Below are positions 6,301 to 43,134 of a DNA stretch of 64,000 nt, piece by piece. Under the pieces are notes generated by a model. The model was given only the letters and a program-made list of their open reading frames with translations. It was not told the DNA's origin and searched no databases. Position 1 is the stretch's first letter; each line of letters opens with the position of its first letter. The position numbers and the translations under genes are program-made. This stretch comes from Astropecten irregularis (taxonomy: Eukaryota > Echinodermata > Asteroidea > Paxillosida > Astropectinidae): contig OZ020259.1 in NCBI GenBank assembly GCA_963971285.1, positions 5,642,001 to 5,706,000 of the forward strand. The letters are read 5' to 3'.

Positions 6301-9300
6301 GCATTTCAGGCCTAATGATGTTGCAAATTTACAAAGAAAGTTCTTTTTGCATTTTGATGGCAAATTTATGGAATTAGACATGGAGACTGAGGTGCAAGTG
6401 TGTGGAAGATCCAAAACTTAAGTTCATAAATCAAAGGTCAAATGTTTTCATTGCCTCATTCTCATGCACACATTCAACTTGTGAAATCATGAATATGCAT
6501 GAATGTCATGAATATGCATATCAACATGAAGCAGGGAACCAATCAGCAGCTGTTTTACCTTTTGGTGGAGGAGGTGTAGGGGGTGATGGCTCAGGGGTTG
6601 GTATCCTGGGAGGTTCGGGCTCGGGTTCCGGTTCAACCTCTGGTTCCGGTTCCGGTTCTGGAGTCGGTTCTTTTGGCGGCTCTGGCTCCGGTTCAACAAC
6701 TTTCAAATCAAGGGAGGATATACGGTCTTTCGTTTAGAACATTGGAGGTAATATTTTCATGTTGTATTTATGATTGGAATGTGGAAAAAGACGGATATAC
6801 TTTGTGAACACAGCACAAAACTCAAACTATACTCAGTGTATAAAAAGTAAAATATTCCAAGAATCATATAAAAAACCGACTACCTTGAACAAAGACTATA
6901 GCTGTGCTTTGAACAAAGACTATGTGCGACTACAGTTTATGTGACTTTACTTCACATAATTACGTCAAGAAAAATGAAAAACATTTGAAAGAACAAAATT
7001 ATGAGGTGTTTAAACTAATATTACTATGGTGAATAAATGTATATGCTTACAAAGGCAAAATGATGAAACATTCAAAAGTGAAAGTGTTGTTAAAAATGGA
7101 TGTTAGTCAGAAAGAGAAGATATTTTTATGCTGGGATTACACTTTCTTGTAAAGTTTACTTTTAAATGGCAATAGTAGTTATGAGGTCATTGTTCCACAA
7201 GTGGAAAGTGAGCGGAAACTTCAAATTCATTGAAAAGTGAACAAAGAAAAATTGACTTGAGTGGGATTCCAACCTGAAACCTCTGGAATACCTTATGCCA
7301 CTGGGCCGACGCCAGTTGGTGCCAGTTTGCGCCAAAGATTATGTGATTGGCGCGTAGTGGCGCAACTTGGCGCGTGTCATTACATTTAAGTGGGTTCCAA
7401 TAGGCGGATTGTTTGCGCCATTTAGTGCCACTTGGTGGATACTTCGCGCTGGTTGCTCGATGCAAGTGGCGCGACGAAAATTTCAAACATTTTGAAATTT
7501 TCTTGCCGCCAAATTCAATTTTTGGTGCTGTTACGGGCCAACACGAGCCAGTTGGGAGGCAGTTTGAGCCACTGCACACCACTAGGCACCTTATTGGCGA
7601 CACTAGCAGCCACAGCAAATTGCATTGGCGCGAACTGGCACCAACTGGACTCCAGTGGACTCCTAGCATTACCGGCGCTCTTACCAACTGAGCTATCCAG
7701 CTCTACATGTTGAGGGTGTCTGTAATAGTCAATTATCTTAATTCATTTTGCCAGTCAGAAGCCAAATCAGTTCAAAATGTTACTGAGCCACAAATTCTGC
7801 CTTTTCCATCACTGTAGCACTTCATTTTTCTTGACGGCTGTAAACTGGAGTTACCACAGAAGGCCATGTAACTTGTGGCACTACATTGCGATAACGGCAC
7901 CATACTGGGCCAAATTTCATGGCTCTGCTTAACATAAGCACAGAATTGGCTCTTACATGAAAGCAGAAAACTTTTGTGCTTACAACATCCTATTTCATGG
8001 ATTAATTGGAGGATAATTCTGTTGTTGGCACCCGTAGTTCGCGTAGCTAAGGATATCTCGCTTTATACTCGGTTTCGGTCAGCGTTGACATTTGGCGCTA
8101 TAGCCCTGCCAAGAAGCCAAGAATGAGAATCATAAGCACAGAATTCTGTGGTAAGCAGGGCCATGTAACTTGCGCTAAAAATAGCACCGAACCTCAGACA
8201 AACATTGCAACCGGCCATGCAGTGAGTTGGGGTCTGTGTGCACGTGCATGCATGGTGTGATATCATTAGTGCGGAACGCTATTAGGCCATGATTGTTCCT
8301 AGAATTGGTTCTTGGTTCTTGGTTCTTGGTTTGGTTCCCTCCTAAATACTCCTAAAGGAGTTTAAACTGGAGGTTGATGAGAGCCTTTATAATAATAATT
8401 TGGGCGGCTAATCATCCTTACTCGCAGCTGGGGTGCTGAATTGCGAAGGATGCGACTTCAACGTGATCAAGTAGCAGGCTTTCATGGCAGCCCTTGCCTG
8501 CCAGCCACATCAACCCATATATGATCACGGAGTACAACCTGAGTTTGAAAGTGTTTGATTTTTGTGGAGGGAGGAAAACCGGAGAACCCGGAGAAAAACC
8601 CTCGTAGCATAGTAGAGAACCAACGCACAACTCTACTCACCATAGGCCGGATTCGAACCCGGGACACATTGATAAGCGAGTGCCTAACACACTTGACACC
8701 TATGCCACCTTTAGGCTAGTCCTTTAATACATGAAAGTGTGATCCCGTCATTAAACAATCATTCATTGGATACATGTAGAACAGAGAAAAAAAGATATTG
8801 AGTGAGTTTTAAAAGAATATAAAGCGGGTGCAGTATGATCCAGTGAGTTAGTACATGTTGACTTGATGTATCTCTACCCAAGCAGGTGTCCAATTAAACA
8901 TACCAGGCTGCCTGAATGGAACCTGGGGAATGTCCATGTAAGGTCGGGCAGATTTTGTCATTTGCTCTGTGAGGCGGACGGACGTATGGATGGTGTTACG
9001 TAAGCAAGCAGTAATTAAAAAGCAGAAATAAATTAAGGGAAAAGTTAGGTTAATTGGCATTAAAACTGTGGTTTTTTACAAGTTAAGTACACAACTTGCA
9101 AGATTTTAATAATATACATTGTACATTACATCTAGCTGATGAAGTAGTTGTTACTACAAAACCTTATGTAATTGTTCCCCGAGGTAATCTTTAAGTGCTA
9201 CCTTAATTTCTTTATTATTTGTCACTATTTCTATTGTCGAAGAGTGTCAGTTTCAACTGTTGAAAGCAAGAAGTGAACATTTTCTGCCGTCAAAAACATC

Positions 9301-12300: not shown

Positions 12301-15300
12301 TGTGCTGTGAGTGCTGCCGAGAGGAAAAGAATCCCCTTTTGAGTATGTGTATATGGAATGCAGGCTGAATGTAAGAAATGGTACATTGTACAGATGGTAA
12401 AGAAATATTGGTGGGGGCTGTTGCTGCCTCAAAACAAGAACTATGCAAGAAATCCATAGAAAGCCATAGAAACCATAGAGAACCACAGAAGCCCATAGAG
12501 ACCCATAGAAACCCATAGAATCCCATAGAACTCCAAAGCAACCCATAGAAAGCCATAGAACTCCATAGGAACCCATAGAAAGCCAACGAAATCACAGAAA
12601 CCCACTGAAGGACATAGAAAGCCATAGAAACCATAGAGAACCACATAAGAAACCCATAGAACCCATAGAACTCCATAGAACTCCATAGGAACCCATAGAA
12701 AGCCAACGAAATCACAGAAACCCATATAAACCCATATAAGCCCGTTGAAACCCATAGAAACCATAGAAACCCATAGAAACTCATAGAATCAATATAAACC
12801 AAAAGAAGCCCATCATGTATAAACCCATAGAAGCCCATTGAAACCCATAGAAACCAACAGAAGGCCATTGAAACCCATATAAATCATAGAAACCTTTAGA
12901 AGCATACAGAAGCCCATAACCTATAAAAACCCATAGAAGCCCATAGAAACCCATAGAAATCCATAGAAACCAAAGGAACCCATAGAACCCCATAGAACCC
13001 CATAGAAGCCCGGCTTTCACAGCATTTTCATCAGTATAAGAGGATACCCGATCCTCAAATGCACACACAGCCAAAACAAATCTTTGAAACAATAAAATCA
13101 TTTCCCCCTTCTCTTTAACAAAGCAAAACACACATAAAAACAAAACATCTGCGGTGATAACAAAATCCGAAACATTTGTGGAAAAATTCTTTGCAGAACA
13201 CACGGCAAAGGTACTGTGTTTTTTGCCAGCGTACCGTCTTCCTGAGATAGTGTACTGTTAACTGGAGGTTCCTCCTGCTCTGTTACATAGGAGGCTATGG
13301 AGAGAACTGAGTTGCTTCTAATGATGCCCTTCTTCTGCTTAGTCTCTTCAACTGATGAGCGATAAAAATTTTAACTATAATTTATTCACAGTTTTGTACT
13401 TTTGCAACTGGTAGGCTTTTGAACACTAAGGGAAAGACACTGTAGTAGTTTCATACTTTGGTTTTTATCAAAGAAGTACAGATTCATGGGCAAAAATATC
13501 AAGGAAGATACAGTAACAGTCATCTGTGAAAATTTCAGTCCCATACGGTGCCAACTTTTTGAAGAAAACAGTGAAAAACAGCCACAGTATTTCTTAATGT
13601 TTTTTCTCTTTTATTTTTGATCTTTTCAAAGATCGGTCGTTGTTTTACTAATTTCTGGATAAATACACCATTTCAGACAGTTGTTTCTACCAGCACCATC
13701 CTCATACCCTGTAAGTTATACATAAACCTGTGAACATTTCTGTTTTGGTTCACAGTTTTGTACTTTTGCAACTCGTAGGAATTTGAACATATTTCTTATT
13801 TAAGGAAAGACACTTTAAAAGTGGTCAGGCCAAGCCAATGAAAAACTTGGCAAGGTCAAGAGGCATTCAGGCCTGTAATCCTCCTCTAGTCAGCCATGAA
13901 ATTCATTACAATAGAGCTGCTCAAAACCAATCAAGCCTGGCTTCTGGATACTGTCCATGATCAATGTGCACTCAATCTGTCAATCACATTAGTGCCAACG
14001 ATGATCCAGGACGCAGCAGAGACTTGAAGTTCAAGTTTAAGGGTTTATAGAAGCCCAATCACCCCAGGCAAAGTCCAGGGGCCAATTTCACAGCCCTGCT
14101 CAGCACAAAACTTTGGTAACCATGTAATTTCTGTAAAAACTGGATCAACAACCAAATGTCCATGTGTTGTGTATCACTTGTGATTGTTCTTTGGCTGTTG
14201 TTCGCTTACCATGAATATCAAATTGAATTTTCAATGGTGGTTTGTTTTATTGGGCAAGACATTTTTGTGCTAAGCAAATTTTTGTTGTGCTTAGCAGCTC
14301 CATGGCCTGGCCTGCTTTTCAGTGGCTGGGGCCCAACCAGCATTAAAGTTTCTTATGGTTCATTTAGCAAACAATAATTTGTACAAAATTTGACATATTT
14401 TTGTTCTTTAAATAGCATTACCTTTCTTCGGTTCTTTTGGAGGTTGCTTCTTTTTTCTGTAATACAAATAAAGAAAACACAAATTATTTTAAGGAAGCTT
14501 TTCAAAAATAATTTGATCAAATGCTGGTGAAGTGAAACACTGCACAGACAGCAGAGAGCAATGTATGCGTGTGCGAGGTTTTCTTCTGTTTTCATTCTGA
14601 TGTGGAAATAGTCCATTTCCTTGCCCTGGTCTAGTGTTGTTAGTTTTTGTCATGGAAGAATCCACAAATAAGATGCTTATTATTTCAAGATGCCGACTCT
14701 TCTCTTTTTCCAGGAGGTAAATGGGAACTAAGGGCCTGTTTGTTTCACGCAAAGGATCATGAATCCTTCGGATCCAGATCCCATTTTAGCGTACCCTGCA
14801 CAGGAGGTGGATCCGAAAAATGGGATCCGGATCCGCAGGATTTGTCCGAAACAAACAGGCCCCTAGTGAGGGTAGAGTTGGATGTTTGTTTCACGCAAAG
14901 GATCATGAATCCTTCGGATCCGGATCCCATTTTAGCGTACCCTGCATAGGAGGTGGATCCGAAAAATGGGATCCGGATCCGCAGGATTCGTCCGAAACAA
15001 ACAGGCCCCTAGTGAGGGTAGAGTTGGATGTTTGTAAGAAATTGACATGAATTTGACTGGATGCGGGTTCAAACCCAGCCCAGGATTGCAGTGCTTGTCT
15101 CCCTGATTAAGACTCGATCTTCATTCAAAATACTGCCTCTTCTCAACCCAGGAGTAAATGGTTACATGTGATCGTGTGATGGCATTCAAAAAGCACTGAG
15201 TATATGCAGTGCTAATACACGTTGGCGAAGGGCAACCCTTATTTAAATCATTCTATCACACTGACAAGTGCAATGATTGGTGAAGATATGAGCTACATGT

Positions 15301-42160: not shown

Positions 42161-42553
42161 TAGTGTTAGTAGGCCTGTTTTCCCTTTTATCCGTTGCAAC
42201 CACCAAATTCATTGGGATCTCCTAAAATATTGTGGGCAAATGAATGGTTAATTATAACTAAAATAGTGACAATACAAAACAGAAATAGCTGTTTCCAATC
42301 TAAATTAATTCTGCTTTGATCCTAGCAGGATCTTTATCGAAGGCTAATTAAATTAATTCTCTAATTTCTATTGACGTAACGCTTTTACAATTTTGTGTCA
42401 TTTTTTAAGTGAAAGGTACCGTCTTTGAAATTAATGTTAATGGGTCAAAATTAGGTCTAAGGAAGTTGGAAAGAGATCAACGTCATATTTCCTTTCTGTA
42501 ATTCGGCAATATAAATTAAAACAAAATACAAGTAGCACTTTATTGACTAAATT

Positions 42554-42594
42554 CGCATGAGCTTTCGTAGCAACAACTACTTATAATCAGATGT
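42554..42594 (-). ncRNA. Hammerhead-like motif, damaged box (monomer 1)
   Basis: ACATCTGATTATAAGTAG-TTGTTG-CTACGAAAGCTCATGC: stem II GTAG/CTAC, GAAA and the GCTC cleavage region are present, but CTGATGA has become CTGATTATA. Confidence 0.5.
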
Positions 42595-42724
42595 AATTCT
42601 GCAATCATTAAGTTCTTCAATCATATAATTTCAAATATTTCGACATTAGGTAGTCAGTATGTCTCATTTTATGGTGATGAAGAAATACAAGTAGCACTTT
42701 ATTGACTAACTACAGTTTAAAATG

Positions 42725-42764
42725 TGCATGAGCTTTCGTAGCAACAACTACTTCATCAGATGCA
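42725..42764 (-). ncRNA. Hammerhead-ribozyme-like motif, intact core (monomer 2)
   Basis: Minus strand: TGCAT (stem I), CTGATGA, extra A, GTAG-TTGTTG-CTAC (stem II), GAAA, GCTC, ATGCA (stem I return, 5 of 5 pairs). A15.1-U16.1 and G-C can form a two-pair stem III, with C at position 17 before the predicted cleavage site. The unpaired A between the box and stem II is non-canonical but occurs in every copy of this family in the window. Confidence 0.58.
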
Positions 42765-43134
42765 ATGAAGATGGTGATGATAATTGATTGGAAATCTTGG
42801 TTTGTTCAGGAGGGCTATCTATAATAGGGTCTATGTAAATCTGGAATGTCAGGCTGATTAAGATACACCAAAGACCGTCCCTGGAATGTCAGGCAAATAA
42901 AACACAATGCATCTTATTTGCAGCGCCCAACAAAAGTAAAAAATACCACAGTAGGGGTACAGGTGAGTATGTAGGCCAGTGTACATGTACATGTCCCAGC
43001 GTGGATCACTGTTGCCTAGTGACCGTCCCGTCGGTTTAGCGCCCTCTATAGGCAGTTCGTCGCGCATCGCCAATCTGGTAAAAAAAACCCTGAAAATTAT
43101 AAAGTCTCGAACATTTCCATTTTCACAAACTATA

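Follow-up and report, generated by a model that had tools for sequence, protein, structure and literature searches.

The two hammerhead-like motifs on the minus strand between positions 42505 and 42770 of the window, the whole 64,000-nucleotide stretch of Astropecten irregularis DNA analysed here, are very probably type I hammerheads of the minimal form without helix III, of the kind carried by the pLTRs of Penelope-like elements (PLEs), and lie in two separate 5′-truncated inserts. The original prediction had taken them for a possible retrozyme made of tandem monomers, a reading that does not hold, as the copies are best explained by independent Penelope-like insertions with their own target-site duplications. 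Hammerheads of PLEs have already been published, and the motifs of the window belong to this known kind; being known PLE hammerheads in two separately inserted remnants, they constitute ordinary repeat debris and no new circular-RNA element.

Two copies of the motif are present, as predicted, in the form of a 34-nt block repeated on the minus strand at a spacing of 171 nt with 94% identity. A second block of 27 nt is shared by the two copies at 100% identity and at a spacing of 159 nt, the difference arising because the second copy lacks 12 nt. The intact copy (42767-42720) consists of a CTGATGA box, a single A, a stem II of GTAGT and GCTAC closed by TGTT, then GAAA, GC and TC, together with a stem I formed by TGCAT and ATGCA. 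The predicted box, GAAA, GCTC segment and stem I are thus all there, and stem II is likewise present, its four pairs becoming five in RNA folding when U-G is counted; stem I folds too. The succession GAAA-GC-TC leaves no space for a helix III hairpin, and helix III is accordingly absent from the motif, its place being taken by a self-complementary AGCU segment. Under the rules of hammerhead cleavage, the intact motif would be expected to be cut between 42730 and 42729. The GC content of the two motifs is 0.32-0.40, and the fold energy of the intact one shows no excess stability relative to shuffles (z -0.63); nor does that of the 266-nt pair folded as a whole (z 0.15), in which stem II of the first copy forms and its stem I does not.

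A covariance model (CM) matches the intact motif (42720..42767, minus strand) with 80.4 bits and an E value of 2.3e-19, this motif's own sequence being part of the model, and the motif of the other insert (42549..42598, minus strand), whose sequence is outside the model, with 54.5 bits and an E value of 2.9e-12. The latter had been described as damaged, and indeed its core is broken, with CTGATTATAAG in the core's place. Elsewhere in the window, the same model recovers one more remnant of a Penelope-like hammerhead, the third (9124..9175, plus strand; 51.7 bits, E 1.7e-11), which carries four additional bases ahead of TGATGA and more closely resembles the motif of a sister family, termed family B below. 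Rfam includes hammerhead families, and none of them was matched across the window at the gathering score, over 501 nt at E values up to 10, or in five further loci. Some microRNA-like Rfam matches in locus L003 overlap the long inverted repeat of that locus, and a search of a phage collection was negative and uninformative.

The first insert (42681..42770, minus strand) is the 90-nt 5′-truncated 3′ end of a Penelope-like element, here called family A, and comprises the hammerhead motif and a tail; its best dispersed copies have 94-98% identity. It is bounded by a 10-nt direct repeat, TCATCACCAT, the 5′ copy of which lies at 42771..42780 and the 3′ copy at 42671..42680, both on the minus strand. 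The second insert (42505..42591, minus strand) is an 87-nt 5′-truncated 3′ end from an element of this kind; it has lost 12 nt internally compared with the first insert and has its own flanking direct repeat, the 8-nt GAATTACA at 42592..42599 (5′ copy) and 42497..42504 (3′ copy), again on the minus strand, which matches at 12 of 13 positions if extended to TTGCAGAATTACA. Both flanking repeats were first spotted by eye and checked afterwards; allowing for 49 offsets and for the base composition of the region, the chance of such a repeat at a given pair of junctions is about 1e-4 for TCATCACCAT and about 2e-3 for GAATTACA. A blind script recovered the TCATCACCAT repeat, and for the second copy returned a longer, 9-nt match inside the first.

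Between the inserts lies unique host sequence (42600..42670, minus strand), inside an 89-nt stretch (42592-42680) that has no similarity above shuffled sequence to insert 1, whose score was equalled or exceeded by 284 of 300 shuffles, or to either outer flank, where 42 (3′ side) and 111 (5′ side) of 300 shuffles reached the score. The directly repeated monomers of the original prediction therefore dissolve: only the inserts of about 90 nt match each other, and the spacer between them is unrepeated. With a direct repeat of its own around each copy and no repetition of the spacer, the most plausible reading is that each copy is an independent 5′-truncated Penelope-like insertion, apparently with its own target-site duplication, and that the two came to lie 171 nt apart by happenstance.

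The same arrangement could have arisen as a partial tandem PLE (pLTR-pLTR), inserted in one event and later eroded, with both motifs belonging to one element. Such tandems are known for PLEs from passages of PMC11167929 and PMC3846280 and the two motifs share an orientation, but direct repeats stand at all four junctions and the inserts break off at different 5′ points, which makes this origin very improbable. A metazoan retrozyme, in which tandem monomers of about 171 nt with one hammerhead each would yield small circular RNAs, must be considered highly improbable. It would account for same-strand motifs at a spacing of 171 nt, and published animal retrozymes have type I hammerheads in repeats of about 150-300 bp, according to part of PMC7761336. 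As the portions of PMC7229834 and PMC7761336 on metazoan non-LTR retrozymes describe them, these elements resemble the window in having a non-coding repeat of low GC that contains a type I hammerhead-like motif; unlike those elements, the window has neither tandem monomers nor helix III, each copy has a flanking repeat, and the motif is linked to PLE coding sequence. The unrepeated spacer contradicts the tandem-monomer form, as do the separate direct repeats, and the 100 genomic places listed, out of 374, include no direct pair of motifs at a spacing of 100-500 nt, the damaged copy of the window being outside that list. The absence of comparable tandem copies among the listed places and the silence of the Rfam hammerhead models, two outcomes that the original prediction had named as refuting, count against a retrozyme as far as both were tested.

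The PLE reading is further supported by the distribution of the motif in the genome. The 34-nt motif is found within three mismatches at 374 places in 476 Mb and its pattern read backwards at none, placing it above chance. Judged by eye, the fetched copies share their right-hand (3′) end and vary at the left, and some continue for about 33 nt beyond the common 3′ end, an optional extension. Head-to-head inverted pairs of the motif occur in L003, L007 and L008, and no complete copy with a pLTR on both sides of the ORF was present among the fetched loci. Flanking direct repeats of 10-16 nt were seen in L002, L006, L007, L008, L013 and L045. A flanking repeat of at least 10 nt accompanies 14 of 46 motif copies, compared with 2.2% of 2032 mismatched pairs, while 6 of the 46 have none of 6 nt or more; as some of the long repeats are internal repeats of the motif or of a palindrome (L040, L011) and L008 is counted twice, this statistic is supportive only. 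In L040 and L011 the motif or pieces of it are clustered on one strand about 37-60 nt apart, and these clusters are perhaps products of template switching during PLE insertion. Elsewhere in the window, a 146-nt direct repeat (14737-15035) consists of two near-identical copies (98%).

The proposal of a hammerhead-related motif carried by a retroelement was correct, and the motif has GIY-YIG endonuclease coding sequence beside it. Among the 100 listed motifs of the 374, 14 have a GIY-YIG endonuclease fragment 55-107 nt upstream on the same strand, a count made with 45 of 149 endonuclease matches, namely the family A-like ones chosen by identity. In L046, L047, L050 and L052, sequence encoding the C-terminus of the GIY-YIG endonuclease lies directly upstream of the motif, mostly with frame breaks, and in L054 an open frame of 218 aa, with a GIY-YIG match slightly under the Pfam cut-off, ends at a stop codon inside the CTGA of the motif. 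Over 169 aa, this frame shares 69% identity with the C-terminus of L053, a sister element of family B with an open frame of 914 aa in which RVT_1 is matched at E 1.6e-11 and GIY-YIG weakly (19.0 bits against a Pfam cut-off of 22.6, E 0.0018). A reverse transcriptase (RT) and a C-terminal GIY-YIG endonuclease are thus found in one frame in this autonomous relative, whereas the fetched loci include no complete family A element that unites RT and motif. A PDB search with the L053 frame found nothing. By eye, 6 of 10 family B loci (L056-L060 and L062) show the sister motif TACATCTGATGAAGTAGTTGTTACTACGAAAGCTTATGTA, or a similar or degraded version of it, some 90-110 nt past the endonuclease end; the remaining four (L053, L055, L061 and L063) lack it at that position. 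The 35-nt core of family B occurs within three mismatches at 277 genomic places, in a list that overlaps the 374 places of family A.

A third PLE family, represented by the 918-aa frame of L029, has a GIY-YIG match over the Pfam cut-off and an RVT_1 match just under it, and 309 of 831 aligned positions are identical between this frame and L053. It was considered as the parent and dropped, the motif being absent there in a strict scan that covered the 12 loci L029-L040, fetched round GIY-YIG matches, and gave no motif in any of them; frames were read in three of the 12 (L029, L031 and L032). Motif fragments do occur in L040, about 2.4 kb from the GIY-YIG match. L032 (G000:C24:2740000-2749900) contains two open frames that combine RING/B-box-like sequence, of TRIM type by eye, with a C-terminal PLE-like GIY-YIG domain and are possible fusions of host genes with a retroelement endonuclease. 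L031 (G000:C94:6000-15900) belongs to a 24-kb contig of bacterial-looking genes, where by eye one frame is UvrC-like and has a GIY-YIG domain and another resembles a transporter, and this contig would appear to be a symbiont or contaminant in the assembly.

The unpaired A before stem II had been counted against the motif. The A is indeed present, but it is a trait of the family and not damage, since a genome search with the A removed from the pattern gives no exact match and a single match with one mismatch, explained by loss of a different base. This genome search is the independent evidence for the extra A. Loci L001-L063 contain 46 motif copies, 40 of which carry TGATGAAGTAG and reduce to 34 distinct rows; leaving out nine rows that break off within stem I or close to it gave alignment A1 (25 rows), and excluding five additional rows with indels gave alignment A2 (20 rows). 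Because the rows were selected by TGATGAAGTAG, the core and the extra A are invariant in both alignments by construction. One of ten pairs is compensated, a G-C to A-U change in stem I in 3 of 20 rows, all of the sister family, which probably reflects one event, and this count is not above chance (280 of 500 shuffles reach it). One pair of stem II changes from U-G to U-A in A2, the outermost pair of stem I is not formed in 9 of 20 rows, and alternative pairings with slid partners score lower. The support that covariation lends to the structure is therefore modest to weak, and core and stems are retained in the two sister families A and B. Although the weak covariation and a fold no better than shuffles would suit a chance origin, in which inverted repeats resemble a hammerhead core and never had a ribozyme past, this retention in two families, at the position where PLEs are reported to carry hammerheads (part of PMC6155905), leaves such mimicry with next to no likelihood.

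The motif of the window fits what has been described for PLEs. Canonical PLEs encode RT and GIY-YIG in one frame and have short terminal repeats and a tail (sections of PMC11167929), and the hammerheads they conserve are of a minimal type I, as a rule with neither helix III nor loop contacts, as set out in parts of PMC6155905 and PMC7761336. The RT and GIY-YIG frame seen in relatives, the hammerhead in the terminal region, the short tail, the target-site duplications and the inverted copies are all shared with elements such as PAc of Anolis, as far as passages of PMC11167929 describe them. In contrast to such elements, the window copies are only remnants of about 90 nt, with GTAGT/GCTAC as stem II and AGCU as the stem-III segment; and while the PAc ORF starts at stem II (same source, in part), here ATG AAG TAG closes that frame immediately. 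For rotifer PLEs, portions of PMC3846280 report head-to-head inverted pLTRs, a 31-bp tail and target-site duplications of 8, 9 or 10 bp, some insertions having none; those of the window measure 10 and 8 nt. According to the relevant part of PMC11167929, reverse transcription of PAc begins at an internal point some 111-118 bp into the ORF, and this accounts for the optional tail.

On this reading, reverse transcription of a PLE RNA would have begun inside the tail, copying would have stopped early, at or just upstream of the hammerhead, and the truncated product would have been inserted twice, at neighbouring sites. In the full element, the hammerhead may cut the RNA of the PLE, probably in dimeric form or assisted by the PLE protein. 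The key papers on PLE hammerheads are Cervera and De la Pena 2014 and Lunse, Weinberg and Breaker 2017, the latter reportedly, by its title, on small PLE-associated variants that cleave as dimers; these variants have the minimal PLE hammerhead in common with the present motif, a likeness drawn from that title. The self-complementarity of AGCU would suit the proposal, made in a passage of PMC7761336, that hammerheads of PLEs may act in dimeric form. The Anolis PAc hammerhead, for its part, requires the PLE protein for cleavage and is dispensable for insertion in vitro, as stated in part of PMC11167929. The copies of the window themselves are most likely inert debris, because the core of the second one is broken.

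A false retrozyme candidate is thereby removed, and a simple test for retrozyme claims follows, which is to seek a target-site duplication round each motif before calling tandem monomers. For this genome, a minimal PLE hammerhead is now on record with an extra A before stem II and with AGCU replacing helix III, the latter in keeping with the dimer action or the protein help described in portions of PMC7761336 and PMC11167929, respectively. There is a very slight chance that the two neighbouring, separately inserted PLE hammerheads, lying on one strand, accidentally pair through AGCU, so that a read-through transcript would fold as a dimeric hammerhead and be cut, an accidental proto-retrozyme which, if true, would suggest how PLE debris can give rise to retrozymes.
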